This document shows, piece after piece, positions 1,211-23,697 of a DNA stretch of 64,000 nt. Below the pieces are notes generated by a model. It was not told the origin of the DNA. It ran no database searches and saw nothing but the letters and a program-made list of their open reading frames with translations. The stretch lies in assembly GCF_001571145.1 (NCBI RefSeq), contig NZ_BCTF01000007.1, positions 1 to 64,000 of the forward strand, written 5' to 3'. The position numbers and the translations under genes are program-made. The stretch is from Hydrogenophaga flava NBRC 102514 (GTDB lineage: Bacteria; Pseudomonadota; Gammaproteobacteria; Burkholderiales; Burkholderiaceae_C). Position 1 is the first letter of the stretch. Every line of letters begins with the position of its first letter.

Positions 1211-2311
1211 ATGGGTCTGACGTTTTCGAAGAGCGTCCGCTTCGGCGCTGTTCGCTTTAATTTCTCTGGCGCCGGCATTGGGATGTCGGTAGGTATCCCT
1301 GGGCTTCGCATCGGTACCGGACCTCGTGGCGCATACATAAGTGGGGGAGTAGGGGGATTCCGCTATCGGCGTAGCCTTGGCGCCGTCCCGAGCAGACCTA
1401 CCAACCCTCGCAGACCTGCCGCGTACTTGCAGGGTGAAGGTGCGCCAGCACCTGAGTATGTAGAAGCATCACCCACCGTCGTTAGCACCAAGGAACACGA
1501 CACGCTTAGCGTGTTGGAGCTCACTGACTCGAACAGCGATGGCCTCCTCCAGTCAATGAACGAGCAGCGTCGAAAGACGCTACTCTGGCCTTTCGTGGCT
1601 GGGGCGCTTTTTCTTCTCTACTTTGCGCTTGCCAATGCGACGAAGTCTTGGCCAGGTTTGGGTCACCTGGCGCTCGCTTTCGCCTTCTCGGCAGTTGTGG
1701 TGTGGGTGTCCTGGCGGGACAAGATGCGCAAGGTCACTGTGCTCTTCTTCGAACCAGATACAACCGTCACTGAGCATTTCGATGCACTAAGCCGTGCGCT
1801 CTCCCAAGCAGCGTCGATGCGCAAGCTCAAGGCAGTAGACAGCACCTCGCGTTACGCGGATAGCAAGTACTCGGCAGGTGCTAGTGAAGGTTTGAAGTTT
1901 TCGCAAACATCCTTGGCCATGGGGCAGGGGCCGGGAATTGTGGCAAATGTTGACGTGCCAGTGATAAAGACAGGACGCACAACGCTAGCTTTCTATCCGG
2001 ACCGGATACTTGCCTTTCAAGGAAGCTCCGTCGGAGGAATCGCGTACGACAGCCTTGTAGCTGTTGAGGAACACGCTCGCTTCATCGAACACGAGTCAGT
2101 GCCAAGCGATGCACAGGTAGTCGACCATACTTGGCAGTTCGTCAATCGAAACGGTGGCCCTGACCGCCGCTTCAAGAACAACAAACAACTACCCATCTGC
2201 GCGTACAGCAAGTTGATGCTGTCAACACGAAGCGGTTTGGACATTCGTCTGCTCGGTTCAAGGGCGCGTGGGTTCGAACCTCTGGTAGTTGCATTGTCAG
2301 AGATGGGCTAA
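1211..2311 (+). CDS. DUF4236 domain membrane protein
   Basis: Residues 1-55 match the DUF4236 pattern: MGLTFSKSVRFG, then glycine-spaced strands (GIGMSVGIPGLRIGTG) and a closing GGVGGFRYRR. The start is ATG 1211 with GGGGGC upstream; an upstream in-frame codon at 1145 would add a non-conserved extension. After a linker there are two hydrophobic segments at about residues 125-145 and 150-170, followed by a soluble C-terminal half of about 190 residues. The domain's function is unknown. It lies 35 bases before the ClpB-like gene with no terminator between, so it is probably the first gene of the operon and may anchor the system to the membrane. Confidence 0.8.
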   Translation: MGLTFSKSVRFGAVRFNFSGAGIGMSVGIPGLRIGTGPRGAYISGGVGGFRYRRSLGAVPSRPTNPRRPAAYLQGEGAPAPEYVEASPTVVSTKEHDTLSVLELTDSNSDGLLQSMNEQRRKTLLWPFVAGALFLLYFALANATKSWPGLGHLALAFAFSAVVVWVSWRDKMRKVTVLFFEPDTTVTEHFDALSRALSQAASMRKLKAVDSTSRYADSKYSAGASEGLKFSQTSLAMGQGPGIVANVDVPVIKTGRTTLAFYPDRILAFQGSSVGGIAYDSLVAVEEHARFIEHESVPSDAQVVDHTWQFVNRNGGPDRRFKNNKQLPICAYSKLMLSTRSGLDIRLLGSRARGFEPLVVALSEMG

Positions 2312-2346
2312 GTGGTGTTGTTGTACAGGTCGTAAGAGGAGTACTC

Positions 2347-4173
2347 GTGGAGCATGTAAACAAGTCCGCGCGGTGGCTACGCGATTTCGAGAGATTCCTC
2401 CCGCTCAAGAGCCAGTTTGTTCTCTCCGGCAATGTACGTGACTTGCAGGTGGTCGAGGTGCAGCCAGGTGTCGTCACTGCCCAACCCTTGAACCAGTGTG
2501 TCGCCACTGCACTCAAGCGGGCAGGCTATGCCCATACGGTTCTTTTTCAGCCGCTTGCAGGCTTCAGTGTTCTGACCGTGCCGGGGGAGACCTCTGGGGC
2601 GGGCGTGTCCTTACTGCAGGAGCTTGGACTGGCAGCCGAAGGTGCCCAAGGGCGGGCGGGAGCGGAGTTGTTGGCAGGAGCGCTGGAGCGAATCGTGAGA
2701 CGCCAAGGTGAGCCCATCGCACTGGTTGTCGATTTTGCTGCCCGTCTGTTGACTCGCCCGAATGACCTTTCTGCCGCCGAACACCATTTGTTTACGCAAG
2801 CTCTGGTGCTTTCACAGCAAGCGGCACCTCGACCTGTAGGCGCAGACCGACGCCCATTTTTTAGCACCCTGCTTTGGATAGTGGAGAAGGAGGGCGACCT
2901 CCCGGATTGGTTCATCGTTGGCAATCCCCGCTTGCGCCACATTCCAGTACCTCGGCCAGACAATCGCGCGAGGCGAGCCCTTGCTCCGGCGCTGCTCAAA
3001 CCACTCGCTGGTGCTGCTCAGGCCACGCCCGAAAGCATGAAGAAAGCCCTGGATAAATTCGTCGACGATACCGAGGGGATGCTCCTCCTGGACGTGAACT
3101 CGATATCGGTCTTGGCACGAGTTGAGGGCGTTCCACTGGACAAAATTGCTGATGCTGTTCGCCGGTACAAAGTTGGCGTCACAGAAGACCCTTGGCTGCA
3201 GATTGGAAGGGAAAAAATTCGGAATGCGGAGTCCTTCATTCGCCAGCGAGTCAAAGGACAACCAGATGCGGTTGTGCACATGCTTGACATCGTTAAGAGA
3301 GCTGTGACTGGGGTTGGCGGGGGTAGACGGGGCGGTCGACCCCGAGGGGTGGCGTTCCTCGCTGGGCCTACCGGCGTAGGCAAGACCGAGCTCGCAAAGA
3401 CCATTACAAGCCTCCTTTTCGGGGACGAGAGTGCCTACATTCGCTTCGATATGTCTGAGTTCAGTGCTGAGCACGCGGACCAGAGGCTGCTAGGCGCACC
3501 ACCTGGGTACATCGGATACGACGCAGGAGGAGAGCTCACGAACGCAATTCGAGAAAAGCCTTTCAGTGTGGTCCTCTTCGATGAGATAGAAAAGGCGCAT
3601 CCGCGGGTTCTGGACAAGTTCCTACAGATTCTGGACGACGGTGTGCTGACGTCTGGCCGCGGCGACCGGGTCTACTTCTCCGAGGCCCTCATTGTCTTCA
3701 CGTCGAACTTGGGCATTTACAAGATGACTGAGTCTGGAGAGCGCGAATTGAATGTCTCCCCGCAAGAGTCGTACGAAGTGGTCAAACAGAAGGTCGAGTC
3801 GGAAGTCGAGCGGCACTTCAAGTTCGTGTTGAACCGGCCGGAAATTCTGAATCGTATGGGCGAGAACATCATAGTTTTCGACTTCATCCGCGAGGATATC
3901 GCCGGTCAGATTTTTGAGCAGATGGTTGCAAGCACTCTGGCAGATATGAAGGAGCAAGAGCTCGACGTAGCTTTGGCGCCAGACGCGATGAACAGCCTGC
4001 GTGCGCTGTGTCTTGAGGACTTATCAAACGGCGGCCGTGGTATCAGAAACAAAGTGGAAGCCCACCTCATCAATCCTTTGGCTCGTGCGCTTTTTGACGC
4101 AGATGCCACTGCTGGCAGCTCGGTCTTGGTTAGTAGTCTTCAGGCTGACAAGCTCTCACTGACCTCTGCGTGA
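2347..4173 (+). CDS. ClpB/ClpA-type AAA+ ATPase
   Basis: A 608-aa AAA+ protein. The C-terminal half is a Clp-type ATPase module: Walker A GPTGVGKT at about residue 338, the DMSEFSAEHA and GAPPGYIGYD loop region, Walker B VVLFDEIEKAH at about 408, sensor-1 IVFTSN, arginine-finger segment LNRPEILNRM, and a small D2-like C-terminal domain. The N-terminal ~300 residues resemble a degenerate ATPase-like region (LSGNVRDL, LVVDFAARLL) with no P-loop, and there is no Clp N-domain. The start is GTG 2347 with AGAGGAG upstream. It is coupled by a TGATG overlap to the radical-SAM gene. The expected action is ATP-driven remodelling of a protein partner. Confidence 0.88.
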   Translation: MEHVNKSARWLRDFERFLPLKSQFVLSGNVRDLQVVEVQPGVVTAQPLNQCVATALKRAGYAHTVLFQPLAGFSVLTVPGETSGAGVSLLQELGLAAEGAQGRAGAELLAGALERIVRRQGEPIALVVDFAARLLTRPNDLSAAEHHLFTQALVLSQQAAPRPVGADRRPFFSTLLWIVEKEGDLPDWFIVGNPRLRHIPVPRPDNRARRALAPALLKPLAGAAQATPESMKKALDKFVDDTEGMLLLDVNSISVLARVEGVPLDKIADAVRRYKVGVTEDPWLQIGREKIRNAESFIRQRVKGQPDAVVHMLDIVKRAVTGVGGGRRGGRPRGVAFLAGPTGVGKTELAKTITSLLFGDESAYIRFDMSEFSAEHADQRLLGAPPGYIGYDAGGELTNAIREKPFSVVLFDEIEKAHPRVLDKFLQILDDGVLTSGRGDRVYFSEALIVFTSNLGIYKMTESGERELNVSPQESYEVVKQKVESEVERHFKFVLNRPEILNRMGENIIVFDFIREDIAGQIFEQMVASTLADMKEQELDVALAPDAMNSLRALCLEDLSNGGRGIRNKVEAHLINPLARALFDADATAGSSVLVSSLQADKLSLTSA

Positions 4174-4808
4174 TGAAGCTTGCTCTTTCGCGCGTGCACT
4201 TCCCTGTGACCACACTAGGCCCAGGCAGGAGGTTGGGTATCTGGCTACAAGGTTGCTCAATCCGCTGTCCTGGTTGTATCTCATCTGATACCTGGGCCAA
4301 GAGGACTCCCGATGTGGAAGTGTCCAACCTCCTCGAACAACTTGATTGTTGGCTTCAGGAGTGCGAAGGCGTCACGATTTCCGGCGGTGAACCGTTTGAA
4401 CAGGCGGATGCACTGGAGCAACTTCTCTACGGAATACGTGAACGGACTGCAGTGAGCGTCCTTGTCTATAGCGGCCTACCGCTCGAGGAACTCAGACAAC
4501 ACACTGTGGTCATGAGAGGGCTCGTCGATTGCCTAATTTCCGACCCGTTTGATGTGCACATGAAGCAATCGAAGTACCTGAGAGGTAGCGACAATCAACG
4601 AATGACTTGCATGACCCCTTTGGGTCAGCGAGTGTTCGGTTCGCTGGACCGAGAACAAGCGGATACAGACCGCCAACTAGACGTGATGTTCGACGACAAC
4701 GGTGAGGTCTGGTTGGTTGGCGTGCCGAGCAGAGGTGACATGCAGCGCTTGAAATCGGTTCTGGCAGGACAGGGGACCTCCCTCACTACCACGGAGGCAC
4801 GCTCGTGA
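4173..4808 (+). CDS. NrdG-like 4Fe-4S radical-SAM activase
   Basis: A 211-aa small radical-SAM protein. The cluster motif is C28-x3-C32-x2-C35 within LQGCSIRCPGC, and the SAM-binding glycine motif follows as TISGGEPFEQ. This layout is that of the small activating enzymes (NrdG, PflA-like 4Fe-4S single-cluster domain). No glycyl-radical enzyme is encoded nearby, so the substrate is unknown; a partner protein of the same operon is the natural suspect. The ATG at 4173 overlaps the preceding stop, and its own stop overlaps the next gene's GTG (GTGA), which indicates translational coupling and a fixed stoichiometry. The last 60 residues do not resemble a known domain. Confidence 0.87.
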   Translation: MKLALSRVHFPVTTLGPGRRLGIWLQGCSIRCPGCISSDTWAKRTPDVEVSNLLEQLDCWLQECEGVTISGGEPFEQADALEQLLYGIRERTAVSVLVYSGLPLEELRQHTVVMRGLVDCLISDPFDVHMKQSKYLRGSDNQRMTCMTPLGQRVFGSLDREQADTDRQLDVMFDDNGEVWLVGVPSRGDMQRLKSVLAGQGTSLTTTEARS

Positions 4809-7800
4809 CTGACCTTGTCCGTTACTGTCCAAGCTGCCATACCGAACGCTCGCTTCACGAAATTTCATGTGAAGGAGAGGTCAGTGGCCATCAATGCAAC
4901 TGGCCGCTGCTGGAGGTTCAAATCACCCCGGCGGGGTGGCGGCCGGTCGAGGTCGTTCCTGCCGAATCCGCACCCACCGCTACACCATCGAATGGAGCCA
5001 TTTGTGCCAATGGGCACCCCCTAGACGTAGGCGACTTCCTTTGTTCGGTTTGCGGAGCAGAGGCTGCTGGTGGCGAACAATCAACTGGGGTGGGTGAGTC
5101 CTCTGCGACCGCAACTTCAGAGACCGTTATTGCAGGGTGGCGAGTACTTCGACAAATCAGTTCGACTGCAGGGCGGCGGGACAGGTACTTCGTCGAAGAA
5201 GACGGAAGTGAGCGCTTCGGCATTCTCACTTTGTATCACCACGGTTGGGAGCCGGACCCGGCGGTCTATGAAGCTCTAAAACGCGTGTCGCTTGAGCACG
5301 TGCCGCAAGTTCTGGCAACTGGTCGCTGGGAGGACCGAGCCTTTGAGGTAACGGAGGAACTCGCCGGCGGAACACTTGCGGACCTGGGCATCGTGGCAAC
5401 TGACTACGCCGGTGTGCGGCGTATCGCCTACGAACTAGGCAAGGCCCTCGATGCACTTTCTGAGGTCGGCCTTCGCCACCGAGACATCCGCCCAGGCACG
5501 TTGTTGGTTCGCAATCGAGACCCTGTCGACCTTGTCATAGGAGGCTTCGGGTCCGCACGCTTGTCGGAATACGACCTAGACATCGTATCGCCGCTTGAAG
5601 TAACCCGGTACACCGCACCTGAGGCAGTTGCAGGCGGGGTTGCCGCAGCATCTGACTGGTGGAGCTTGGGCATAGTACTGTTGGAGCAAATCACCAGTGG
5701 CAGGTGCTTTGAGGGTATTGAGCAACAGGCGTTCCTAATTCATGTTCTCGCCAATGGCGTTCCGATTCCAAGGGATATACCCGCGGAAGTGGCGCTCCTA
5801 CTTCGCGGCTTGCTTGCGCGGGATAGGCACAAGCGTTGGAGGTGGAAGGAAGTGCAAGCCTGGCTTGAAGGCCATGCGCCTGATGCGCCAGAGTCTGGGG
5901 GTGAAAACGCTGGTGCTGGAGATGGACCAGCTCTCGCTCTGGGCGGGAAACAATTCCGTACTCTTTCGTCCTACGCCTTGGCAGCTGCAAGTGCTGCCGT
6001 ATGGGATGAAGCAAGAGACCAACTGGTGCGCGGAGTAGTCACCGACTGGATACAGGCAAAAGGCGCGTCAGCGAAGCTTGTTGCTGGACTTAGGCGGATT
6101 GCTAAGGACGAATCCGTTACAGATGACTGGCGCTTGCTTGTCGCACTGAAGGTACTCAATCCAGACATGCCTCCTGTGATGAGGGGTGCCATTGTCGGCC
6201 CGAAGTGGCTATTGGAAAGCCCACTTGAAGGGTATTCACTGGTCACAGGGCCTGTGCCTGACCTCCTGCACGAACTGGACCAAGACAACTGGCTGCTACG
6301 ACTGAAGCTAAGGGCAACGGCTGTTCGCGAACGGGCTGACCACCTCGCAATTGACCTGGACGAGGACACGCTCCGAATCTACCTGCTGGTCACTTCTAGG
6401 GCCCGCCTAAGCGCGGAGTGGGACAGCCGCAGGCGCGTGTTCCCGGATTCAGAGCATCTCGGACTTCTGAACCTCCTTGAGCGGCGCAGTCTCAGCGAGG
6501 AAGACCTTATCGTTGTCCTGAGCGCGGCACCTAGTCAGCTTCGCTCTTGCGACGCCATAGTGGAAGAGGCCCGACAGCTTGCGCTAGCTGGTGCGGTGAC
6601 AACCTTCGACGTCACAGCCGCGGCTGATATGGTCACTTGGCCGCGCGGAGAGATTCTGGAGGCTTCGGCGGAACGGGTCGAAGGCTTTGCCCGTTGTAGC
6701 TATGCGATGGTGAACGAGTGGGCTGACCGCTTCCGCCTAGAAAAACGTATGCCGTTGGCGCAAGCACTGGTGCTTCTGTCTGTGCCGAAGGAGCAATGGC
6801 AAGAGCCGCATCGGCAGCAGTACTTTTCTCATCTGCTCTCCTTCTTTGAGAAAAAGGTGGTCACTACGGTCATGCGCGGTCCGCTAGTGCGAATGACCAT
6901 TGGCAAAAGTACTGCGCGAGTAGACCTGAGAGAGCTCCATACGAGGCGAATGGATGCTGGTGGTTTGCTAGACCATTTGCTCAAGCGCAATGCAACAGCA
7001 TTGCTCTTGGACCCCGAAGCGCTAGACCCGCTTGGCACGACTGCCTACCGATTGCAAGCACTGGACCGCCAAAGCCAGTTGTACAAGCGCGATACAGGCA
7101 TTGACGGCCTGTATCTTGGTTTTCCTTTCCTGCTGACCAAGGAAGCGAAATCGGGCGCGAGGACGCGTATTGCACCTGTACTGCTCTGGCCGGTGCGTGT
7201 ACACCACGAGGTGGGCGCGAGAACCAACGTACAGCTCTCGTTCGACAACGACCGAGAGGAAGTTCGACTCAACCCCGCACTCGAGAGTTTGGTTGGGCAG
7301 GAGACGGTCAAAAGATGGGCTTCAGTGGCCGAGGAGATTCTTGGACGCTCAGCCCTTCGCGCGGCGGACGTGGTGGATGCGTTTGGAGCATTGGCCACTC
7401 CACGTTCAAGAGAGTTGACCGCATTGCCAGGCCCGAAAGTTGAAGTGCCCGCAAGGGGCATGGAACTTGAGTGCGCTGGTGTCCTGTTTCACATGACCTT
7501 CATGGGTCAGGCTATCGGGGAGGAGATTCGGCAACTGAGGGCCATGCCGCCCTCCGGAACGGGGTTGGAGACCGCGCTTCGCCTGAAGGCAATCGAAACT
7601 GAAGCGCTCCCACTGCCAGTAAGGCCGAAGGAAGTAGACCGCTATTTCACAGTCTCTTCAGACCCATCTCAAGAAGACGCAGTGCTCAGAGCCAGGACTG
7701 CGCCGGGTCTGCTCGTGGAAGGGCCGCCCGGAACGGGTAAGAGCCAAACAATTGTGAACATGGTGGGCGACTCCATTGGCCGGGGAAAAAGCATTCTCAT

Positions 7801-10800
7801 CGTTTGCCAAAAACACGCAGCTCTGGAGGTCGTGCACAAGCGCCTCGTAGCAGAGGGTCTGGGCGAGCGCATCGTCATGGTCAACGACGTCAATAAAGAC
7901 CGAGAGCCAATCATTAGGGCTGTTCGTGAGCAGTTGGAGTCTCTTGCACGGCGACTTTCCGACAATGCACCGCAGATTGCCCGGAGGCGCGAGGCTACGG
8001 CTGCGCGCATTGAATCGAATGAAGCTGCCTTGGACAAGCACCATTCGGCCTTGCATCAGGTCAATGAATCTGTTGGTCTGAGCTATCGCGTTCTGCTTGG
8101 CGAGCTCATCGAACTGGAGCAGGCTGGTGTCGTGCCAGAGGTTCCCGCCTTAAGAGCAATGCTCCAACGGCTGAACATCGGGCAGTTGGCTATGTTGGAG
8201 GAAGAGGTTGCTCCCGTAGTGAGGCACTGGCTGCCCGCGAAATTTGAAGGGAGTGCCTTGGCACAACTGCAGCCGTTCGCTGCAGATTTGGCGACCTTGA
8301 ACGACTTCCGCGAAGCCTTCGAAAATCTCGAAAAGGCCGAGGATGCTCGGCACCAAGTGCTGACCACCCGGCTAGCGAGCTTCGAGGTTGAAGACCCAAA
8401 GCCACATAGGACTTGGCTCTCGTCATACGGCAGCGAGTTTCTTGAGATGCGGGATGAGGAACGAGTGCTCCTTGCAAAGTGGCTGGAGTTGTTCAGGCAT
8501 ACGAAAGAAGGAGAGCTTCCCGGGCTGAAGAGCATTGACGAGCTCAAGAAGCTTCGTGGTGCACTCTCTGCTTGTCGAGTCCAGGACTATGACAAGAAGC
8601 TTTCACCGGTCATGTGTCGTGTCCCTAAAGACAAGTTGGAAAAGCTTAGGGTTCTGACTACTGAAGCTCTGGAGCCGCTCGGATTTTTCGCGAAACTAAA
8701 TGTCTTTCGCATGATGCGGAAGGGAAAGGTTACGAAGTTTCTGCAATCCATTGGCGATGTCGGTTCTGCTGACCGTATGGTGAGCTTGCTGGCTGCCGTA
8801 AAGCTGGAACAGAGTTGGCGCTCCTTACGCAAAGCCGTTGACGAGGCGCATGCGCGCTTGTCATTGCCAGGCCTGGAGTCAGATGCTGGCCCGACGTTGC
8901 TGTCGACGGTTTCAAAGACGCTTGCCGAGCTGCAAGCCGTCGCCTCCCAAGCCGCACATCTCCAAGCTGCACCATGGTCGGAGCGGATGGACAAGGCAGC
9001 ACTTTCAAACACTCGCGATGCCTTCCTCAAGCTGTACGCCGAATTTGATGCAGCTTTTGCACGCCACCAGGTGCGAACAGATAGCCTTGTCGCGCTTGGC
9101 TCGCTTACACCATGGATGCAGCCAACCTGGGCGCAGGAATGCCGACAAGCCGTACTCAAAAACGAGGGCAACGGCCAACGTGTTCAACCTATAGTCGCAG
9201 CAAAGCCATCCCTCGCGGCTTATCAGCTGTTTCGCGGGCGGGCAGCCCAAATGTCAGAGCAGGCGCTACAAGCCTTAGCTTTGCTCAGGTCGAAAGAGGG
9301 ACAGTTCCAATCCTTCTCGCTTGGAGACCTGGAGGATGTCGTACGGCGCGTTCTGGGACGAGAGGCTCGGCTTGCATGGAAGCAAGTGATGGAACAGAGC
9401 ACCCCCGAACTTGCGATGGAGAGAAGGGAGCTCGCCAGCAAGGTGCAAGTCCTGGAACAACTTGACCAAGACATGCGGGTTCTCAATCGCCAACTGCTAC
9501 AGGTCAACTTTGACCTGGCGGGAGTGCGGCCCCTTAGGGAGTGGGAAGACTTCACGCGACTGCGAGGTCAGCGGGCGCGTCGTCTTCGTGAGTTCATTGA
9601 GCTGGGTGCCGGTCTCGGACTGATGAAGTTGCGCTCAGTCTGGATGATGAATCCAGACGTGGCTAGTCGTGTTCTCCCCTTAAAGGCAGGGCTCTTTGAT
9701 ACCGTCATTTATGACGAGGCATCTCAGATGCCTGTGGAGTTCGCCTTACCAACACTTTTCCGCGGCAAGGTAACGGTGGTCAGTGGCGACGAGAAGCAAA
9801 TGCCGCCGACAACGTTCTTCGCGAGCAAGGTAGAAAGCGACGAGGCACACACGTTCGATGGAGAACTCCCGGACGAGGATGCCACTTCCGAGGAGAAGGA
9901 CGCATTCGAAGAGAACTGGAACCGCAGGGAAATCAAGGATTGCCCAGACCTGCTGCAACTTGCCCGAGCAAACCTCCCCAACACGCGACTGCAAATTCAC
10001 TACCGGTCTTCGTACCGCGAGCTCATCGACTACTCGAATGCAGCGTTCTATGCGAATGACCTTAGCGTTCCGGTCAGGCACCCGAGGGACATTGTTAGAG
10101 CGGCCAAGCCAATCGAAATGGTTAGGGTGGACGGCGTCTACGAAGAGCAGACCAATCCAGAGGAGGCGCGGCGCGTGGTCGACATAGTTGCGCAGTTGTG
10201 GAGTACACCTTTGGGGCAGCGTCCCTCCGTCGGGATAGTGACGTTCAATCGCAAACAGGCCGAGCTCATCGAGGATGGCTTGGAAGCGCGAGCGGAAGCA
10301 GATGCTGCTTTCCGAACTGCCTATAGCCAAGAGTCAGAACGCTACGAGGACGGTGAAGACATGAGCGTCTTCGTCAAGAACGTTGAGAACGTGCAAGGTG
10401 ACGAGAGAGATGTCATCGTGTTCTCGTCCACATTTGGACGCAACGCTCAGGGCTCATTCCTACGGTTCTTCGGTGTGCTGGGGCAAAAGGGTGGAGAGAG
10501 GCGACTGAACGTCGCCGTTACTCGCTCACGCAAGAAGGTCTACATGGTGACTTCCATGCCTATCCCTGAAATTAGCGACCTTCTCAGCACGCGCCGCGCG
10601 CCTGCTTCTCCGCGAGATTACCTGCAGGGCTATATGGAGTACGCCCGCTTGGTGTCTTCAGGCGAATTCGAATCGGCAAAGTCACTGTTGGGGCGTATCA
10701 CGCTTAGGCGTGATGTGAAGGGCGTCACCTCGTACAGCAGCGGCAGTGACGACGCTTTCTATCGCTCCGTGGGCGATTTTTTGCGCTCGTTAGGGCACCA

Positions 10801-11080
10801 GGTGGGGGCCACCGAGGACGCTGATGCGTTCGGTCTTGACTATGCCATCGAGCATCCGGAGACTGGCCTCTTCGCAATTGGTATCGAGTGCGATTCCCCA
10901 CGCCACCCATTGCTACAGCACGCCCGAGCACGTGAGGTTTGGCGACCTCAGGTTCTGGGAAGGTCGTTGCCTTATCTGCACCGAGTCTCCTGCCACGGGT
11001 GGTACCACGACGGGGAGCAAGAACGCGGGAGACTTCTCTATGCCGTCAAGAAGGCGCTCGATGTGAGGCACGCTTCATGA
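4805..11080 (+). CDS. Zinc-ribbon/pseudokinase/SF1 helicase/nuclease fusion
   Basis: A 2,091-aa multidomain protein. Residues 1-75 hold two zinc-ribbon-like cysteine clusters (CPSC...C...C and CANGH...CSVC). Residues about 107-360 have a protein-kinase fold: HRDIRPGT near 224, GGFGSAR near 246, TAPEA near 270. The ATP-binding lysine is not evident, the catalytic-loop Asn is Thr and the DFG Asp is Gly, so it is probably a pseudokinase. A long middle region leads to a COG1112/UPF1-like helicase: Walker A GPPGTGKS near 973, DEAS near 1637, QIHYRSSY, and VAVTRSRKK. The C-terminus (about 1980-2085) resembles an MTES_1575/Vsr-type nuclease (DYAIEH...GIECDSP). Kinase-helicase-nuclease combinations recall Mokosh defence, though the neighbours differ. 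Confidence 0.85.
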   Translation: MTDLVRYCPSCHTERSLHEISCEGEVSGHQCNWPLLEVQITPAGWRPVEVVPAESAPTATPSNGAICANGHPLDVGDFLCSVCGAEAAGGEQSTGVGESSATATSETVIAGWRVLRQISSTAGRRDRYFVEEDGSERFGILTLYHHGWEPDPAVYEALKRVSLEHVPQVLATGRWEDRAFEVTEELAGGTLADLGIVATDYAGVRRIAYELGKALDALSEVGLRHRDIRPGTLLVRNRDPVDLVIGGFGSARLSEYDLDIVSPLEVTRYTAPEAVAGGVAAASDWWSLGIVLLEQITSGRCFEGIEQQAFLIHVLANGVPIPRDIPAEVALLLRGLLARDRHKRWRWKEVQAWLEGHAPDAPESGGENAGAGDGPALALGGKQFRTLSSYALAAASAAVWDEARDQLVRGVVTDWIQAKGASAKLVAGLRRIAKDESVTDDWRLLVALKVLNPDMPPVMRGAIVGPKWLLESPLEGYSLVTGPVPDLLHELDQDNWLLRLKLRATAVRERADHLAIDLDEDTLRIYLLVTSRARLSAEWDSRRRVFPDSEHLGLLNLLERRSLSEEDLIVVLSAAPSQLRSCDAIVEEARQLALAGAVTTFDVTAAADMVTWPRGEILEASAERVEGFARCSYAMVNEWADRFRLEKRMPLAQALVLLSVPKEQWQEPHRQQYFSHLLSFFEKKVVTTVMRGPLVRMTIGKSTARVDLRELHTRRMDAGGLLDHLLKRNATALLLDPEALDPLGTTAYRLQALDRQSQLYKRDTGIDGLYLGFPFLLTKEAKSGARTRIAPVLLWPVRVHHEVGARTNVQLSFDNDREEVRLNPALESLVGQETVKRWASVAEEILGRSALRAADVVDAFGALATPRSRELTALPGPKVEVPARGMELECAGVLFHMTFMGQAIGEEIRQLRAMPPSGTGLETALRLKAIETEALPLPVRPKEVDRYFTVSSDPSQEDAVLRARTAPGLLVEGPPGTGKSQTIVNMVGDSIGRGKSILIVCQKHAALEVVHKRLVAEGLGERIVMVNDVNKDREPIIRAVREQLESLARRLSDNAPQIARRREATAARIESNEAALDKHHSALHQVNESVGLSYRVLLGELIELEQAGVVPEVPALRAMLQRLNIGQLAMLEEEVAPVVRHWLPAKFEGSALAQLQPFAADLATLNDFREAFENLEKAEDARHQVLTTRLASFEVEDPKPHRTWLSSYGSEFLEMRDEERVLLAKWLELFRHTKEGELPGLKSIDELKKLRGALSACRVQDYDKKLSPVMCRVPKDKLEKLRVLTTEALEPLGFFAKLNVFRMMRKGKVTKFLQSIGDVGSADRMVSLLAAVKLEQSWRSLRKAVDEAHARLSLPGLESDAGPTLLSTVSKTLAELQAVASQAAHLQAAPWSERMDKAALSNTRDAFLKLYAEFDAAFARHQVRTDSLVALGSLTPWMQPTWAQECRQAVLKNEGNGQRVQPIVAAKPSLAAYQLFRGRAAQMSEQALQALALLRSKEGQFQSFSLGDLEDVVRRVLGREARLAWKQVMEQSTPELAMERRELASKVQVLEQLDQDMRVLNRQLLQVNFDLAGVRPLREWEDFTRLRGQRARRLREFIELGAGLGLMKLRSVWMMNPDVASRVLPLKAGLFDTVIYDEASQMPVEFALPTLFRGKVTVVSGDEKQMPPTTFFASKVESDEAHTFDGELPDEDATSEEKDAFEENWNRREIKDCPDLLQLARANLPNTRLQIHYRSSYRELIDYSNAAFYANDLSVPVRHPRDIVRAAKPIEMVRVDGVYEEQTNPEEARRVVDIVAQLWSTPLGQRPSVGIVTFNRKQAELIEDGLEARAEADAAFRTAYSQESERYEDGEDMSVFVKNVENVQGDERDVIVFSSTFGRNAQGSFLRFFGVLGQKGGERRLNVAVTRSRKKVYMVTSMPIPEISDLLSTRRAPASPRDYLQGYMEYARLVSSGEFESAKSLLGRITLRRDVKGVTSYSSGSDDAFYRSVGDFLRSLGHQVGATEDADAFGLDYAIEHPETGLFAIGIECDSPRHPLLQHARAREVWRPQVLGRSLPYLHRVSCHGWYHDGEQERGRLLYAVKKALDVRHAS

Positions 11081-12411
11081 GTGGACCCAAAGTAGTCAGA
11101 GTCGTAACCCGCGAAGAATTGGTCGCTGCTGGCGAGTCCCTCCTTCACAGGCTCGACGAAGCGCTATCGGAGTGGGAGCGAACTTGCGCGGCACTTGGCG
11201 TCAGTCCTACCGACCAGAAGTCTTGCAAGGACCGTCGTGATGAACTGGAGAAGATGCTGCGCGCAGACAAGTTTGGAGAGTTCGGGCAGGCCGCGGTAGC
11301 TGAGATTGATTTTCTAGAGTCAGATGCGTCTCGTCGGCGAGAAAGAGCAGCTCAAGCGCGCGCTCAGGAGCGTGCCCGATTGGTGAGTGGCCGTGAGCTT
11401 GCGAGCGTGTTGTTACGCCAAGTGACCAATGACGCGCCCGAACGACCGGCATTGGAGCTGGCGGCTGCAGGGGAGCTCACATTGAAAGAGTTGGACGCAG
11501 TACTTGCACGAGCGAGACTGTCGATGTTCCGCCCGACAACAACGCAACTCAGCGCGACTCAGCAGACCCTAGCTGCACGCCTCGCCGGTAGCGAAAGCTC
11601 GATGGTTGATTTTGAAGAATGGCGTGAGAAGTTGGTGGGAGGTGCTTCGAGACTGGAAGCATTGCTTGCGCATATCTCGGAACTGGAGTTGCTGGGTGAG
11701 GCCAGTCGTGCAGACGAACTGCACAAGGAGGTCTTGACTGCTGCTGCCATTGAAGATGACGGTTTGCGAGGGATGCGCCTCGATTCGATGGTTGTCGCTC
11801 TCAAGAAGGCCAAAGATGATGTTGTGGCCCGTGAGCGGCTGCGCCGCCAGGTAGCTCTAGTCGCTGCAGAGTTAGAGCGCTTCAATGAAGCCGCCGAAGT
11901 CATTGCTGTCATGAGGGCTGCAGCCGCCGCCCCAGCGTCCGACCTCAGGAGGGTGCTTGAGGTCGCTGAGGAACAGCTTAGGGAATTTCAGCAAGCTCAG
12001 GTTGCTGCTGCACGGCGAAAGGCTGTACTCGACGGGCTACAGCAACTTGGCTATCAGGTTCACGAACAACTCTCAACCATAACAAGTAAGGGTGGCAGAT
12101 TGGTCGTGAGCAACCCAGCCACGGCAGGCTATGGGGTGGAGATTGCAGCTGGGGCCGGTCTGGAAAGGCTGCAGGTGAGAGCTGTAGCGTTTGACATGAA
12201 TCGAGATGCTGCCGGAGACATTCCGGCCGAGCAGCGCTGGTGTGATGACTTTGGAGCTTTGAGCGGGGTACTTAAGGCAATGGGTTCTAGCTTGATAGTA
12301 GAGAAGGCCCTGGGTGTGGGTGCAGTGCCTATGAAGCTAGCTGTATCCGCGCAGCCTGAAGGCGAGCGTCGCACATCGAATGCCCCCCTACATACTGGAC
12401 GCAAATCGTAG
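11077..12411 (+). CDS. Coiled-coil protein, last gene of operon
   Basis: A 444-aa protein beginning MSGPKVVRVVTREEL. The start is ATG 11077, which overlaps the stop of the helicase fusion (ATGA); an in-frame upstream extension to 10939 lies inside the helicase gene and is not used. Residues about 20-360 are almost continuous charged and Ala/Leu/Glu-rich helix, with heptad-like stretches suggesting long coiled coils. The last ~90 residues are more globular (GGRLVVSNPATAGYGVEI, GDIPAEQRWCDDF). I know no family for it. Overlap with the previous gene argues that it is a structural partner of the helicase. No catalytic motif is visible. Confidence 0.75.
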   Translation: MSGPKVVRVVTREELVAAGESLLHRLDEALSEWERTCAALGVSPTDQKSCKDRRDELEKMLRADKFGEFGQAAVAEIDFLESDASRRRERAAQARAQERARLVSGRELASVLLRQVTNDAPERPALELAAAGELTLKELDAVLARARLSMFRPTTTQLSATQQTLAARLAGSESSMVDFEEWREKLVGGASRLEALLAHISELELLGEASRADELHKEVLTAAAIEDDGLRGMRLDSMVVALKKAKDDVVARERLRRQVALVAAELERFNEAAEVIAVMRAAAAAPASDLRRVLEVAEEQLREFQQAQVAAARRKAVLDGLQQLGYQVHEQLSTITSKGGRLVVSNPATAGYGVEIAAGAGLERLQVRAVAFDMNRDAAGDIPAEQRWCDDFGALSGVLKAMGSSLIVEKALGVGAVPMKLAVSAQPEGERRTSNAPLHTGRKS

Positions 12412-12566
12412 GAAGTCTGAATGTGGTTTGCTGGCGCCCATAGGATGACAGCGCGACCTAGCCCAATCCAGGCGACCTACATTTCAAAAGACCAGATGCG
12501 TCCAGCGCTTAACAACCGCCCGCCAACGCGTTGCAAGCTATCGGTGGCTCATTTATTGGAGATAGT

Positions 12567-13925
12567 ATGGCTATAGTGGAAAGCGTGGACTTTGAAGATG
12601 CCCACCGTAGATTCCGACGGGTAGCGTTGCTTCATTCAGACCGACCGCCAATGGAGCAGTTTGAGACTACGCTTATCACGGGTCACAATGGCTCCCACAA
12701 GAGTACGCTGCTTAAGCAACTCGTAACTTCCTTAGTGGCACCTCGTAAACAAGACTTATTCTCGGAGCGCAACAGGCTCCTAAATCCGGATGCGCACCAA
12801 GTTTTTTGTCTTTCTGGCTCTGCTGCAGACAGATTCCCGTCAAAGGAACGTCCGCAAGGTATCCGCAGTGAATTCGATGTTCCCCATTACACCTATATAG
12901 GACAGCGAGTTGGCAACAACCTTTTGAGTCGAAAGGCCCCTCTTGAAACGATGCTCGCCTTTTCTTTACATCCGCGGGCTGAAAAGCGCTGTGGATGGAG
13001 CTTCTTTTCGGATGCTCATCGGCATGCTGGAATTATTCCGGCTTCAAGATACATCGTAGGCTTTAAGTCGGCCAATCGAGATACAAGAGCTTCGTTGGAA
13101 AATTTGGAGGAAAACCTCAGTGCGATTTCTCCTGAAACAGACGAAGTACGGTACGGCAGGCGGCCATTCCCGAACGTATCGTTTGCGATGGCAAGATGGT
13201 TACTAAAGGAATTCTCTCCTGAGGAGTTTTCCAATCTTCGAATTCTGCTTCAACAGCGCGCTCGCTTCGACATTGGACTTTCTACCCAGGGTGCTTATTG
13301 CGAAAGCACCACCCCCAATGTGCTGAGGCTAGGTCTTCTGTTGGACATTCTTCGTTTACAAGAGGTACATGTCCGTTCTCTATTAAACGACACGGAGTTC
13401 TCGGCGTTTGAACTAAGTTCCGGCGAGTACCATATGTTCTCGACCATTCTTGCGATAGGTTTTGGGCTTGATGAACAATCCGTCCTTCTGATGGATGAGC
13501 CTGAAAATAGCCTCCATCCACAATGGCAAAGGGACCTGATGGACACAGTGTTCAGTACATGCTCCAAGGTTATGCGCGATGGGCATGTAATTGTCTCCAC
13601 GCATTCCCCCCTCATCGTCGGTTCAGCGTCCCAGGGCAGCACGGTGGTAGACATGACGTTAGTAGAACCTCAATTGAGCGTGGTTTCGTACGGCGCGTCA
13701 TCGGATGAGCTTCTTTTGAATCAGTTTGGGGTTGGGTCAAGTCGAAACAAAGTTGTGGTTGATAGAGTGCAGTTAGCAGTTTCACTTGTCGAGCGTGGGG
13801 CATTTGACGCGCCTGAATTTTTGGCTCTGATTCCAGAGTTAATTAATATTCGAACTGCTCTTACCGAGGGCGACCCGATGGTTGAGGTGATTGATGCGCT
13901 CTTGGGAGGGGTTTCGAACAAATGA
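12567..13925 (+). CDS. ptuA: Septu defence ATPase PtuA
   Basis: A 452-aa ABC/SMC-like ATPase. Walker A is GHNGSHKST at about residue 39, the signature LSSGE near 285, Walker B with D-loop LLMDEPENSLHPQWQ near 306, and the H-loop STHSP follows. This is the PtuA layout, and the partner HNH gene overlaps its stop (ATGA), which defines Septu. The start is ATG 12567 with GGAG 6 bases upstream; a TTG at 12531 is less likely. In studied Septu systems PtuA forms a complex with the PtuB nuclease and restrains it until infection. The pair is more AT-rich than its neighbours, which suggests a separate acquisition. Confidence 0.88.
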   Translation: MAIVESVDFEDAHRRFRRVALLHSDRPPMEQFETTLITGHNGSHKSTLLKQLVTSLVAPRKQDLFSERNRLLNPDAHQVFCLSGSAADRFPSKERPQGIRSEFDVPHYTYIGQRVGNNLLSRKAPLETMLAFSLHPRAEKRCGWSFFSDAHRHAGIIPASRYIVGFKSANRDTRASLENLEENLSAISPETDEVRYGRRPFPNVSFAMARWLLKEFSPEEFSNLRILLQQRARFDIGLSTQGAYCESTTPNVLRLGLLLDILRLQEVHVRSLLNDTEFSAFELSSGEYHMFSTILAIGFGLDEQSVLLMDEPENSLHPQWQRDLMDTVFSTCSKVMRDGHVIVSTHSPLIVGSASQGSTVVDMTLVEPQLSVVSYGASSDELLLNQFGVGSSRNKVVVDRVQLAVSLVERGAFDAPEFLALIPELINIRTALTEGDPMVEVIDALLGGVSNK

Positions 13926-14632
13926 ATATTGGGTTCGAGCGCATAAATCCGGTTCCTCTTTATCTTGCGGGAACGACGCAGGCTTTACTCAACGCATACA
14001 CGTGGACGTCAAAGGCACGGATTGTCACTGATTTCAAAACTGAATTGAAGCGTAACCTCAGAACGTGTCAGTTCGGTCGTTGCTGCTTTTGCAGACGACT
14101 CCTTTACGACGATTATGCTGCTCAACTAGAGCATTTCGTCGACAAAGATTCATATCCCGAGCATCGTTTCGAGATTCGCAACCTAGCAGTTTCTTGTGGA
14201 ACATGCAATGTAAAGAAGAACGGGTACTTCTCAAAATGGATGGCTGGATACAGGCGGCTGACCAACAATCCTAACGCGATACGTATTCCGGTATTTTCAA
14301 TTCAACTTAATTCCGGTGCTCAGTTTCCCACCAATTCGGCAGATTTCAGATGGGTCAATCCATATGTTCATAATTACTCGGACCACATTGCCATAGCTCG
14401 TGGTTGGGTATTTACTTGGCATTCCCCTACAGGGCGAAGAACAGTCCGTGGACTCCGGCTGAACGATTTGGCAGAGGTTGAACTACGCGCACTGAAGGAG
14501 AAACTTGAAATGCGAGGAGGCATGCTCTCGATGCTTGTAGCATCTATGTCCGAACTGGAAGTGCATCGAGCACGAGACATCGCGAGGGTCGTTGCAAAAG
14601 TGATTACCCGTCGTCGTAACGCTCGGAATTAG
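13922..14632 (+). CDS. ptuB: Septu HNH nuclease PtuB
   Basis: A 236-aa HNH endonuclease. A zinc-knuckle cysteine pair (CCFC), the catalytic-region LEHFVDK and the second knuckle with Asn/Lys (SCGTCNVKKNGYF) span residues about 45-105, the same order as in PtuB and retron-associated HNH proteins. The rest has no obvious motif apart from a basic C-terminus. Translation is coupled to ptuA by a 4-base ATGA overlap. The expected role is cleavage of nucleic acid when PtuA is triggered by phage. The function call rests on gene pairing plus motifs. Confidence 0.87.
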   Translation: MNIGFERINPVPLYLAGTTQALLNAYTWTSKARIVTDFKTELKRNLRTCQFGRCCFCRRLLYDDYAAQLEHFVDKDSYPEHRFEIRNLAVSCGTCNVKKNGYFSKWMAGYRRLTNNPNAIRIPVFSIQLNSGAQFPTNSADFRWVNPYVHNYSDHIAIARGWVFTWHSPTGRRTVRGLRLNDLAEVELRALKEKLEMRGGMLSMLVASMSELEVHRARDIARVVAKVITRRRNARN

Positions 14633-15188: not shown

Positions 15189-18100
15189 CTAGCTAGCGAT
15201 GCGTACGGAACGGAAGACCTCACTAAGTTGCACAGCAGCGGCGCGCCTGTCGCCCATGTCTACGAGCCTGTCGAGTGCACGCAATAGTTTCTGCGCCATC
15301 GCCAAGGGCATCGGCTGCTGCCGCTCGCTGAAGCGCTGAATCAGCCCAGACAGCCGGCCTGGAAGTTGCGTACCCCGCCATCCTGGAGGAGTTCCCTCTC
15401 CGACCAGAACGTAGTCAAGGTTGTCAACGAAATGCTGAACAGGGTAGTGCTCCAAGCTGCTTTCGCAAAGGCTCACCCAGGCGCGGGAAACCAAAGGGGC
15501 AGACCCGTGGGCGGAAAGTATTGGCTCAAAGACGGAAATCACAACTCCAACTTCGGTCCAGTCTCGGTTGGCGAAGCGAACCGCCCCTCCAGCGTACCCA
15601 AGGTCGGCGAAGAACAAGTGATTGACTATGGTGACGAAGTCCAGCTTAGAGTGTCCGTCGTGTCTGAAGTGTTCCCAGCCCCGATGGGTTAGAACGCGCT
15701 GCGCGACAGCAGTGAGCAAGGGTAAGGCGTTCCTGGGAATCTTTGGGCTGTCCATCACTTGACCAATCAGATGGGCTGTGAATGGCTGAGTGAGGTTGGT
15801 GAACGCCTCATCATTGGCGGTCATTGCCGGTTGAAGGAAACGTCGCATTCCTTCATCCAGAGACACCATCAGCGAAATCCGAGCCAAGAACTGATATAGA
15901 TGGTGACACCACTCAAAGTTGTTGGTTGCGAAGTCATCGTCAAGTTCTCGCCCGCTTCTCGCCCATGAAGGCGCGATTCGCTCGATGGTCCACTTGGCCA
16001 GGCCCTCGCACCAGTCAAGAAACATCGCCTCGTGTGCTTGGTTCGCCAGTGCGGCTTCAAAGGGGATGACCCGCAGTACCTTCTCGAGGAGTGAGGTGTC
16101 GACGTCCAATGGGTTGACACGCCACTCGGTATTGACGGTGCGGCCACGTCGCCCGCGTGCTTGAACAGCCTCGCCTTCGGGAATCGATATCCAGGGCTCA
16201 GGCCATGTGGGCATCGGGCTGGCCACAGGCTTTCCATCTTGCAGTCTTTGTAGTTCCTCGGTGACCGCCCCCTGAATTCGTACTTGGTACGGTTCTTCTG
16301 GTTCTCCATCTGGACCATACGGCACTTCCAAGAGCGCTAACGCTGTAGCCAGTCTTAGCGCTGCCCACGCGATGTCCGGATACCGCGGCCAGGCACCCAG
16401 TAAGGCGCCAAATGCCGCGACTGCGATTTCCTCGTAGGGATGGGCGCAAAGCTCCGTGAGGAAAGACTGCAGCGGCTTGACGTCATCATCGTCTCCAGCA
16501 ACCGCAAACAATGCCCCCAGCCCCTTGGCGGCGTAGAGCACCGGATGGTGCATGAGGTTCACGCTGCGGGTGAAAGAAGGTTGCTGGCCCTTCGGCGTCT
16601 GCGCAGCACGAGCGCACACTTCACCCGCCCATTGGAAGTGCGCCTCTGCCTTCTCAAGCAAGAGGATTGCAGCTACACCAGCAACGGCCGATTGCCGTTG
16701 GTATGCCAGCTCCGTGTGTATATGTCCAGTGGCGAAAAGGCCTTCGGAATCGAGTTCCTTTGCTGCTGTTGCAGCAGCTTCAAGCGTGAGTGACGCCTTC
16801 AGCTTGCCGTCGTCAAAGTAGGAGTGGGCCCAGTTCAGAAGAGGGAGGTAGCGCCCCATCTCGCTTTGTCGGGCTTGTATCGCCTGAATGTCCTTGCCCG
16901 TTGCCTTGGGATTCTCGTGGGAGATGACGACCTTGGATTCATCCGGGCTGAGCTCTGCGCGATAGTTCTCCTGCTTGCCTAACTCCACCCATATCTCTGC
17001 AGTTCTTGCGAGGTCAGAACGTATGCCAGCGTTCGTTCGTTGCTCAGCGTAGTCAAAGGGCAAGTCCCCCGAGAAGCCTTGGATGGCCGCAGCAGCTAAC
17101 CCACCTAGCTCTCCTCCTCTAAGCACCATAAGAGTGGCGAGCGAGCGGATTTCTGCACGGCGTACCGGTCTTTCATTGCCTTCCTTCACCGCCATGCCGT
17201 GAGGTTTGTCCTGCGGCTTGCTGAACCCGATAAGGTTCGCAATCTGCGACATGTCCTGCACTTGGCGCCGAATGTCCCAGTGCCAAAGGCGCTGATTCGT
17301 CGCAATAGGCAGAGTTGTCGCGGAGCTGTGCTGCTCCTGCAGAGCGATGGCAGCGGCAACAGCAAGGGCGCCCACGGACTGGTGCCCTTCCAAGACGGCT
17401 TTGAGGACGTCGTCAACCGGCGTGCCTTTCTCAAGTTCTCGGAACGCCCAAGCCTCAAGAGCCATCCAGCCTGAGTTGACGGTCGATGGCCCGAAATATC
17501 CACGTGCTCCCAAGTAGAGGCGGCTATCGCCCCAGAACACTTGCCTGCCCCACGGAAATTGCATGACGAGCGGGATAGGTGTTCCATCCTTCTCGTGCGA
17601 GAGCCGGTGCAGCTGGCGCCAAGACCGAGTGGCGTGGTTGGCTACCTCCCGAACCAGTCTTCTACCCTGGTCCGGTGCTTGCAGCAGTAGAGAGTGGAAA
17701 GGCTCCCTAGTAGGCGCCGAAGGGAAGAAAGAGTGTTGGTCGTCGATGGAGAGATGGTTCCATTCAAAGTGGCTGAAGCTGTTTGACACGAGGAAGTCGC
17801 GTCCTCGCAGCTCCTTCTTCACAATGACAGGAAGTCGCTTGCGGACTACGGAAAGCGTGAAGTCCGCCAACTCCTCTGGGCAAGCGCGCGAGAGAAATGG
17901 GGCATGTGTGAAAACGGACTGAACGGCCTGACGTGGCATTCGTTCTAGTCGGCGCAAATCGCGGAGGTACTGAGTGACCAAGAAGCGCTGGGTGAGCGAA
18001 GAGTTCAGCACCAAAGTGCGCAGCGCCGACTCGAGCTCGTCCAAGCCATCCCACCTGTCCTCAATCTCGGCCCAGACCCCGCGGTCCGTCGAGAACTCCC

Positions 18101-21293: not shown

Positions 21294-21779
21294 ATGAAGA
21301 GTGTGTGGGTGTCCGCTTTCGTACTCGCTGCATCTTTTGGCGTGCATGCCGACGTGATTTCGGGAAAGGTTGTGCGTGTGGCTGATGGCGACACCATCAC
21401 CGTCTTGGACGCGAACCTGCAGCAACACAAGATTCGTTTGGCTGGGATAGACGCACCCGAACGCCGGCAAGCCTTTGGTCAACGCTCGCGCGAGTTCCTT
21501 GCTTCGATGGTGGCGGCGCAGCAGGTCGACGTCGAGACAGAAAAAACTGACAAGTACGGCCGTTCTGTGGGCAAGGTGATTTTGGAGGGGCGGGACGTCA
21601 ATCTGGCTGTTGTGGCAGCTGGTCTTGCTTGGCACTACAAGGAATACGAGAACGAGCAAACTCCCTCTGACCGAATGCTGTACGCAAGTGCTGAGCAGGA
21701 GGCGCGCAGATTCCGAAGGGGACTGTGGTTGGACAACGCACCGGAAGCCCCTTGGGACTGGAGACATAGCGGGCGATGA
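21294..21779 (+). CDS. Secreted thermonuclease-family nuclease
   Basis: A 161-aa staphylococcal-nuclease (OB-fold) protein. Residues 1-19 form a signal peptide ending at AxA-like VHA. The catalytic pattern is present: VVRVADGDTITVL, then IRLAGIDAPERRQAFG with the conserved Asp/Glu and Arg, KYGRSVGKVIL with the second Arg, and the terminal RGLW. It should cleave DNA or RNA with calcium outside the cytoplasm. The start is ATG 21294. Its neighbours are unrelated, so it is probably single-gene cargo. Such genes are common on mobile elements of Proteobacteria. Confidence 0.9.
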   Translation: MKSVWVSAFVLAASFGVHADVISGKVVRVADGDTITVLDANLQQHKIRLAGIDAPERRQAFGQRSREFLASMVAAQQVDVETEKTDKYGRSVGKVILEGRDVNLAVVAAGLAWHYKEYENEQTPSDRMLYASAEQEARRFRRGLWLDNAPEAPWDWRHSGR

Positions 21780-21799
21780 GGAATGCCCAGGTGCTCGCT

Positions 21800-22090
21800 T
21801 TATCGCTTCTTGTCTGAAGGCGCGGTCTTCAAGTTGAACTCCACTGCGTTGGATATTGCTCTCAGAACATCCACGAGGTCGTCACGACGGTCGGCATATC
21901 GCCACCAATGCGGGTCCTGACGGCGCTGAGCGTCTTGCAGCATGTCGTCTGCGTCGAACAACAGGTCCTCGACCCGCCTAAGCAGAGCTCCTGCGCTGGT
22001 GATGTCGCAGACCCCAATCTGCTCTGATTTGATTCGTTCCAGGTCAAGCTCCCGCAAGCCGGGTGTGCATGTCGGTGGCTCGGTTTTCAT
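21800..22090 (-). CDS. Hypothetical protein, 96 aa
   Basis: A 96-aa mostly helical acidic protein with an Arg/Asp-rich middle (RRVEDLLFDADDMLQDAQRRQDP) and a basic tail. It starts at ATG 22090, overlapping the stop of the HAD-like gene by 4 bases, so the two form an operon. I recognise no family. Confidence 0.6.
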   Translation of the reverse strand: MKTEPPTCTPGLRELDLERIKSEQIGVCDITSAGALLRRVEDLLFDADDMLQDAQRRQDPHWWRYADRRDDLVDVLRAISNAVEFNLKTAPSDKKR

Positions 22091-22527: not shown

Positions 22528-22538
22528 CGAAGTCGCTT

Positions 22539-22805: not shown

Positions 22806-22993
22806 CAGTCGTCCGGGCAGGTCATGCTCGCGGACAAAGAAGGTCCGGAAGACGGGGCATATTGACGCTAGATATGCAAGTGGTGCCTACCTGCGTGGAG
22901 CAGGCTTTCGGGCTTGGCTTTCGATACTCAAAGAGCAATGGTCAGTACATCGCGTACTGGCCGTTGGTGAATCAGTCAAGTTGCAGGCCGCGC

Positions 22994-23611: not shown

Positions 23612-23697
23612 GGTGGGGTGAATTTCTCTTGAGCTTGGAGGGTTGAGTCAACGTGGCGTGCCCACACAGGAGCGAAATCGCTGACCAAAGCCGCGTC

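Follow-up and report, generated by a model that had tools for sequence, protein, structure and literature searches.

A stretch of 64,000 nucleotides from Hydrogenophaga flava NBRC 102514 (contig NZ_BCTF01000007.1, positions 1 to 64,000; hereafter the window) carries on its plus strand, at 1211-12411, five closely packed genes, g1 to g5, the last four of which form a conserved unit that looks like an undescribed antiviral system. This unit encodes a ClpC-like AAA+ protein (g2, 2347-4173, 608 aa), an NrdG-like radical S-adenosylmethionine (SAM) protein (g3, 4170-4808, 212 aa), a fusion of zinc ribbons, pseudokinase, DUF4011 segment, superfamily 1 (SF1) helicase and nuclease (g4, 4805-11080, 2091 aa), and a coiled-coil protein with a terminal alpha/beta domain, a putative adaptor (g5, 11077-12411, 444 aa). 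It is preceded by g1 (1211-2311, 366 aa), which encodes a DUF4236 protein with hydrophobic segments. The intergenic gap between g1 and g2 is 35 bp, and each of the following junctions is an overlap of 4 bp: g2/g3 at 4170-4173 (GTGA), g3/g4 at 4805-4808 (GTGA) and g4/g5 at 11077-11080 (ATGA). The coordinates bear out the original prediction of a plus-strand set of five genes overlapping at the last three junctions, and the genes do constitute an operon. A simple scan of positions 950-1260 found no sigma-70-like promoter.

A conserved unit of four genes

Among the 33 loci (pooled from several searches, the window included) that have g2, g3 and a match to the g4-type helicase, 30 carry g2-g3-g4-g5 in the same order and on the same strand. 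The three loci not conforming are one cut by a contig end (L008), one of a different type (L083) and one in which no g5 was detected (L099). The four genes also vary together: their pairwise distances, computed for 26 of the 30 loci, correlate with r between 0.90 and 0.95, and none of 999 permutations reached such a value. The search for co-occurrence across genomes, which had been proposed as a check, thus gave strong support for g2-g5. The idea that all five genes form the unit has to be given up, as DUF4236 was seen near only four loci (the window, L002, L007 and L082; in L007 and L082 confirmed by Pfam), for which reason g1 is considered accessory and not part of the core. Pfam DUF4236 matches g1 at 6.2e-12; the gene immediately precedes the unit in the window, L002 and L082, and in L007 it is found close by on the opposite strand. 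A profile made from these four did not detect it near the other fetched loci, of which flanks of up to ~10 kb were available.

The four-gene unit is hosted by Alpha-, Beta- and Gammaproteobacteria, by Flavobacteriaceae and by one Acidobacteria metagenome-assembled genome, which sits among the Alphaproteobacteria in the g3 tree (85 rows; support 86 in the Shimodaira-Hasegawa-like approximate likelihood ratio test, SH-aLRT); contigs of such genomes can be misbinned. None of 35 genomes of the same genus, some of them incomplete, contained g3, and the unit is found on plasmids of Rhizobium and Caballeronia. The unit is mobile.

A scan with g3 yielded 78 loci, 54 of which contain a relative of g2 (the window copy, L001, left out). 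As a base rate, g3 matched 5 of 59 genomes at E 0.001, the window's own left out, and only one of these, G040, below 1e-20; G040 itself carries the core (L103). Because sampling based on g3 may be biased, the N-terminal module of g2 was used as a query against whole genomes. At E 1e-10 it was present in 5 of 398 genomes sampled by phylum; it was present in 6 of 369 sampled by class, and since two were common to both samples, nine genomes resulted. In five of the nine g3 adjoins g2 (the window's genome, G376, G211, G256 and G069), and in G637 it lies ~7 kb off. Somewhere in the genome a g3-like protein is encoded in all six cases checked (G559, G558, G669, G637, G069 and G256; best E at most 1e-24). 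The g5 profile matched 3 of the 398 genomes, all three of which also have g2. No phage record matched the g2 module in the viral search, and the viral scan with g3 returned one viral contig, at 32% identity.

The four proteins and their relatives

That g4 combines zinc ribbons, pseudokinase, helicase and nuclease, as had been read from the letters of the sequence, is borne out by its Pfam matches (Pkinase, DUF4011, AAA_11, AAA_12 and MTES_1575) and by the loss of kinase residues. Two zinc-ribbon-like cysteine clusters (4826-5053; C8, C11, C22 and C31, then C67, H71, C80 and C83; 26 of 26 rows) are followed on the plus strand by the kinase-like domain (5156-5863; Pkinase, 4.6e-17), the DUF4011 segment (7046-7288; 1.6e-10), a UPF1/SMUBP2-like SF1 helicase core with a long insert (7643-10561; AAA_11 and AAA_12) and an MTES_1575 nuclease domain (10757-11038; 3.4e-14). 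The helicase matches SMUBP-2 (4b3f) at 2.4e-10 and has its Walker residues in 26 of 26 rows; D2012 and C2029 of the nuclease are present in 25, the 26th being without that stretch. PADLOC PDC-S37 is the best model for g4 (residues 947-2086, 5.6e-137), and PADLOC Hhe and the anti-phage ProA of NCBIfam match it at 1.8e-59 and 4.8e-141, respectively. Two frames together make up g4 in L003, L009 and L019.

In loci of the window type (class A), the catalytic lysine of beta-3 is absent from the kinase domain in all 26 rows, and the DFG aspartate is absent in 21, the five rows retaining it being Flavobacteria; by these residues, the kinase-like domain of g4 is a pseudokinase in the window clade. Class B, consisting of 19 loci from Gallionella, Undibacterium and others, has the order g5-g2-g3-kinase; its kinase of ~790 aa aligns with the front of g4, and no helicase match was found in the fetched DNA of the 19 loci. 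Gaps of 1.4-3 kb lie between the genes in two of them (L034 and L036). Across class B and further relatives, the kinase lysine, the HRD aspartate, the asparagine and the DFG aspartate are kept in 25 of 25 rows, which gives the class B kinase an active-looking sequence. Loci outside class A that keep the lysine are L041, L047a, L048, L050, L052, L053, L029, L055, L056, L100 and L103 (L047b is unaligned in this comparison). As the lysine is missing in the window type and kept in its relatives, the lost active site coincides with fusion to the helicase-nuclease.

The further relatives carry genes for FHA, PP2C and DUF4407 proteins; in Marinifilum (L052, 4381-11976), genes for a kinase, an MSGPK coiled-coil protein, an AAA+ protein, a radical-SAM protein, FHA and PP2C stand in a row. 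On Moellerella plasmids, g2, g3 and a distant g5-like protein occur with a 1318-aa helicase and a PIN protein. The operon of one such plasmid (L083, 584-10537) comprises an SF1 helicase, the PIN protein, a coiled-coil protein, a ClpC-like AAA+ protein and an NrdG-like protein; E. coli genomes yielded no close match to this locus. A Geminocystis plasmid (L084, 9956-20588) has an MSGSPK coiled-coil gene (17237) near a related AAA+ gene (19356), and several other genes separate these two from the NrdG-like gene at 9956.

The protein encoded by g2 matches Pfam AAA_2 (3.3e-47) and ClpB_D2-small (1.7e-4). Its D2-like AAA+ module (3340-4131, plus strand) has Walker A, Walker B and the pore-loop Tyr388 intact, with GPTGVGKTE, DEIEK, Y388 and R564 invariant or present in at least 90% of 50 rows. 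The D1-like module in front of it (2347-3216, plus strand), delineated by sequence and an AlphaFold model, is specific to the family and is without a P-loop. The model (mean predicted local distance difference test score, pLDDT, 86.6) aligns over its full length with ClpC and ClpB at a template modelling (TM) score of ~0.5 and root-mean-square deviations of mostly 8-14. Thus, the designation as a ClpB-type ATPase holds as far as the AAA+ type is concerned (ClpB/ClpC) and is corrected to a ClpABC-like protein of two modules, the first without a P-loop. Motifs and model make g2 a probable unfoldase in which a single ring works.

For g3, Pfam Fer4_12 was obtained at 6e-23, the best NCBIfam match is NrdG (TIGR02491; 75.9 bits, below the cut-off of 126.1), and the sole match in a sequence search of the PDB is pyruvate formate-lyase (PFL) activating enzyme. 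Both superfamily motifs, CX3CX2C and one of the GGE type, are present. The [4Fe-4S] motif (residues 29-36; 4254-4277, plus strand) supplies C29, C33 and C36, which are kept in 58 of 58 rows, as are GGEP (72-75) and further residues beyond the cluster cysteines. The absence of a glycyl-radical enzyme near this putative activase, pointed out in the original prediction, extends to the genome: neither NRDD nor Gly_radical, the two families searched, matched in the window's genome (completeness 100) or in any of the ten genomes with the g3 family, the former included, and the same searches recovered NRDD in 6 and Gly_radical in 3 of 14 control genomes. An enzyme of this kind elsewhere in the genome as the client of g3 is, with neither family found, unsupported. 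As the residues are kept and matches to both families are absent, g3 is probably an active radical-SAM enzyme with a job other than glycyl-radical activation. In the g3 tree, 11 rows without g2 (Clostridia, Coriobacteria and one Verrucomicrobium) form one clade (99% SH-aLRT) apart from the g3 family; this clade is presumed to be canonical NrdG. Types other than classes A and B are scattered, with L083 among the rows without g2.

No Pfam, PADLOC or NCBIfam model matched g5 at E 0.1 (the Pfam query began at residue 2), and at the same threshold no PADLOC model matched g3. Over 47 aligned rows, with a mean column identity of 30%, M1, S2, G325, Y326, D381 and G415 of g5 are invariant, and G3, P4, W388 and C389 occur in at least 90%. 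Conservation is thereby placed at the MSGP N-terminal motif (11077-11088, plus strand) and in the C-terminal domain (12037-12330, plus strand) with G325-Y326, D381, G415 and the near-invariant W388-C389. Reading frames of at least 250 aa beginning with a start codon followed by Ser-Gly-Pro numbered 50 in 84 records (1.52 Mb) that had been selected for g3, and 47 of the 50 are the coiled-coil gene, one of these (L052) assigned by its position and a weak match to the C-terminal domain. In the predicted structure (mean pLDDT 87.4, predicted TM score 0.81) strands occur solely at residues 2-10 and 341-413; therefore, pairing of the N-terminal strand with the C-terminal domain is expected. Structural matches of the model cover both ends of the protein. 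None of the solved structures matched it at E of 0.001 or lower, and a second structural look gave middling matches (Z 6-8), among them KA1/AMPK-like domains, a likeness that may reflect just a common arrangement.

A possible mechanism and its rivals

The probabilities expressed in this section are judgements and not computed values. A defence role of the operon is likely; the role in conflict that had been proposed for it is one that we continue to infer from the relatives of the effector, from mobility and from neighbours such as Septu. Probably, g4 is the effector: it would be a translocase-nuclease acting on nucleic acid, of the Hhe or PDC-S37 kind, and its front end of zinc ribbons and pseudokinase would dock it to the remaining components. 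The control core would consist of g2, g3 and g5, common to the relatives whose output is an active-looking Ser/Thr kinase; in others, g2, g3 and a distant g5-like protein would control a PIN plus helicase output. As a ClpC-like unfoldase with one working ring, g2 would pull on or remodel g5 or an assembly of g4 and g5. The point of control would be g5, an adaptor in which the MSGP N-terminus and the C-terminal domain make one globular unit and a long helical coil joins them. The radical-SAM protein g3, having no glycyl-radical client, would modify a partner protein, most likely g5, and the modification would set the system to a locked or a licensed state. Upon infection, the lock would be released and g4 would degrade nucleic acid. 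Action of g2 on g5 is conceivable, with somewhat more speaking against it than for it, and action of g3 on g5 is a more tentative proposal still. Taken as a whole, a helicase-nuclease effector, g4, triggered by infection and governed by a core of AAA+, radical-SAM and adaptor proteins is about an even bet.

Several observations weigh against this scheme. The literature yielded no relative that had been tested with phages, and the scores of g4 are below the curated cut-offs of Hhe (299 versus 2000 bits) and ProA (471.9 versus 1500 bits). L099 has pieces of g2, g3 and g4 on a long contig with no detected g5, and in G558, G559 and G669 the 16-19 kb around g2 contain no g3, the g3-like protein being elsewhere in the genome (in G558 the g2 gene spans two frames, and in G669 it begins at a contig end). 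In the g3 tree, a single branch separates each of classes A and B from the other rows, at modest support (84 and 83). The MSGP motif has exceptions: Gly3 is Ser in three of the 47 rows (L019, L049 and L037), the Moellerella relative L083 (MSRAD) and L100 (MSAEA) have g3 without MSGP, and the 19 kb of L109, where the sequence is MSGE, contain no g3. Therefore, the motif is not strictly tied to g3. G325-Y326 may be kept just for the fold. The Ser rows, L100 and L083 weaken the case for Gly3 as an obligatory radical site. Finally, the PADLOC matches listed for the flanks of other class A loci include IetA, Mokosh, GajB, BREX and further models, and the flanks of class B have matches to defence models too (MADS, restriction-modification), so that enrichment in islands is not specific to the window type and the argument from neighbourhood is supportive only. 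The flank scan covered 139 of 158 open reading frames at 21 of 23 loci in class A and 120 of 174 at 14 of 19 in class B, some near-copies being dropped; the resulting 81 versus 21 matched families were not used as proof because many models overlap and the best 25 of the 81 were listed.

A more specific version of the scheme regards the core as an immune switch based on a protein radical. Here, g3 would be an activase acting on g5, at the domain where the MSGP terminus meets G325-Y326 and W388-C389, and would leave a radical or covalent mark to be read by g2; the core would be plugged into different outputs, namely an active kinase, PIN plus helicase, or, where the kinase residues are lost, the fused helicase-nuclease. 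This version is rather unlikely. Alternatively, g3 may be a sensor of oxygen, redox state or SAM level (e.g., of its depletion by SAM-degrading enzymes of phages) that gates the unfoldase with no partner being modified. It is established chemistry that oxygen and SAM both affect a [4Fe-4S]-SAM site, and a sensor is compatible with the ten genomes in which neither Gly_radical nor NRDD matched; however, the strict retention of GGEP and of residues beyond the cluster cysteines is a better fit to catalysis than to sensing. This alternative is improbable.

Two other explanations concern the operon as a whole. In one, it serves defence with g4 alone as the working part, as in Hhe, and g2, g3 and g5 provide for its folding, its assembly or the control of its toxicity. 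Indeed, the relatives of residues 945-2087 of g4 (Hhe, ProA and PDC-S37) are catalogued as anti-phage proteins, or candidates, that act singly, but in 30 of 33 loci g4 is joined by g2, g3 and g5, which also occur in the 19 class B loci that have no helicase match in the fetched DNA; therefore, they are not merely helpers of g4, and we consider this explanation unlikely. In the other, the genes belong to a phospho-signalling system for stress or protein quality that is not antiviral, with an ancestral active kinase, FHA, PP2C, AAA+ and radical-SAM proteins, and the window form was redirected to nucleic acid, with plasmid exclusion or DNA repair as examples of its use. It would account for the kinase, FHA, PP2C and DUF4407 genes beside the same core and for the presence of class B in varied Betaproteobacteria. 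Yet the window type lost the kinase residues, carries a helicase-nuclease of the anti-phage kind, and is patchily distributed and partly plasmid-borne. Such a system is likewise unlikely.

If true, the scheme of a g4 effector under a core of g2, g3 and g5 would describe a mode of control new to conflict systems, in which radical-SAM chemistry, an unfoldase and an adaptor replace a nucleotide messenger or a protease. It would also define a client question for a clade of NrdG-type radical-SAM proteins in genomes without a detectable glycyl-radical domain, and the loss of kinase residues in the helicase-nuclease type would be a testable case of an immune regulator whose output was swapped and whose core was retained. 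New here are the lack of Gly_radical and NRDD matches beside a conserved g3, the kinase-type relatives sharing g2, g3 and g5, and the MSGP motif of g5.

Genomic setting and comparison with known systems

The operon lies in the left 30 kb of the window, where the guanine-plus-cytosine (GC) content is 0.51-0.62, compared with 0.61-0.72 in the remainder. At ~30000, at a competence-protein gene (30041), GC content, 0.51 at 28-30 kb, steps up to 0.71 at 30-32 kb, possibly marking the right edge of an island. A Septu pair, PtuA and PtuB, follows directly 3′ of the operon at 12531-14632 (PADLOC, 1.5e-177 and 1.1e-101). An OLD-like ATPase gene at 27874-29315 on the minus strand is spread over two adjacent frames, which match the PADLOC Old model in its N-terminal and later parts, and looks interrupted. 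Of the supposed defence-rich transposon, the lower-GC region with Septu and an OLD-like gene stands, and no transposon was identified. Between these genes lie a gene for a 1772-aa protein (15189-20507, minus strand) with weak matches only (PDC-M54A, 6.3e-16; DUF626_VIII, 2.6e-11; Zeta_toxin, 6e-4) and, at 21294-26198, genes for SNase, GST, SRAP, an S24 peptidase (UmuD-like) and a UmuC-like protein.

The gene set has, as anticipated, no named system: none matched in PADLOC, NCBIfam or the literature listings. No recognisable description of g2-g5 was among the literature matches listed, preprints and most subscription papers lying outside the scope of that search, and no papers were found behind the names ProA and PDC-S37; PDC-M37 is counted in PMC11811056.

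With ClpC and ClpB, g2 shares the two-module AAA+ fold and the intact D2, but it scores 262.6 bits against a ClpB cut-off of 1232.1 (TIGR03346), its first module is without a P-loop, and Clp_N did not match. The DolB model of Dodola matches g2 at 1e-16. In Dodola, DolB has DolA as partner. No DolA model was among the matches listed for seven proteins (the best 25 of 30 families for g4, and the best 25 of 142 and of 66 for the Septu proteins). An AAA+ protein with an inactive first module is also described, by Kaur et al, 2020 (PMC7159879), for FtsH ternary conflict systems with vWA and MoxR; some of these have an adjoining radical-SAM protein, for which the authors propose modification of a peptide effector. 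According to the same paper, however, the AAA+ protein of those systems is of the FtsH type and vWA is central, and no vWA match was obtained among the proteins scanned here.

NrdG and PFL activating enzyme have the CX3CX2C motif and the Fer4_12 domain in common with g3, which differs in falling below the NrdG cut-off, in standing apart from presumed canonical NrdG in the tree, and in occurring in ten genomes of ten without NrdD or Gly_radical. Membership in NrdG was dropped on these grounds (75.9 versus 126.1 bits, no NrdD in the genome).

Mokosh (MkoA, MkoB and MkoC) combines a kinase-like domain and an SF1 helicase in one protein, as does g4, on whose helicase the MkoA model matches at 9.3e-48, and it has a phospholipase D (PLD)-type nuclease component. 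To our knowledge, Mokosh has no counterpart of the AAA+, radical-SAM and coiled-coil partners. In g4 the kinase residues are lost and the nuclease is MTES_1575, no PLD family being among the Pfam matches of g1-g5, and membership in Mokosh was dropped for want of the PLD component. The closest likeness is to PDC-S37 and ProA (NF058533), which align with g4 over ~1140 residues (947-2086 and 945-2087), and to Hhe (NF042953), whose best stretch covers ~480 residues at the C-terminal end. Like g4, which also has the Pfam DUF4011 segment, Hhe joins DUF4011, an SF1 helicase and a C-terminal nuclease in one chain. With g4 below both curated cut-offs, membership in Hhe and ProA was dropped as well; compared with either, g4 adds the zinc ribbons and the pseudokinase, and it is accompanied by three conserved partner genes.

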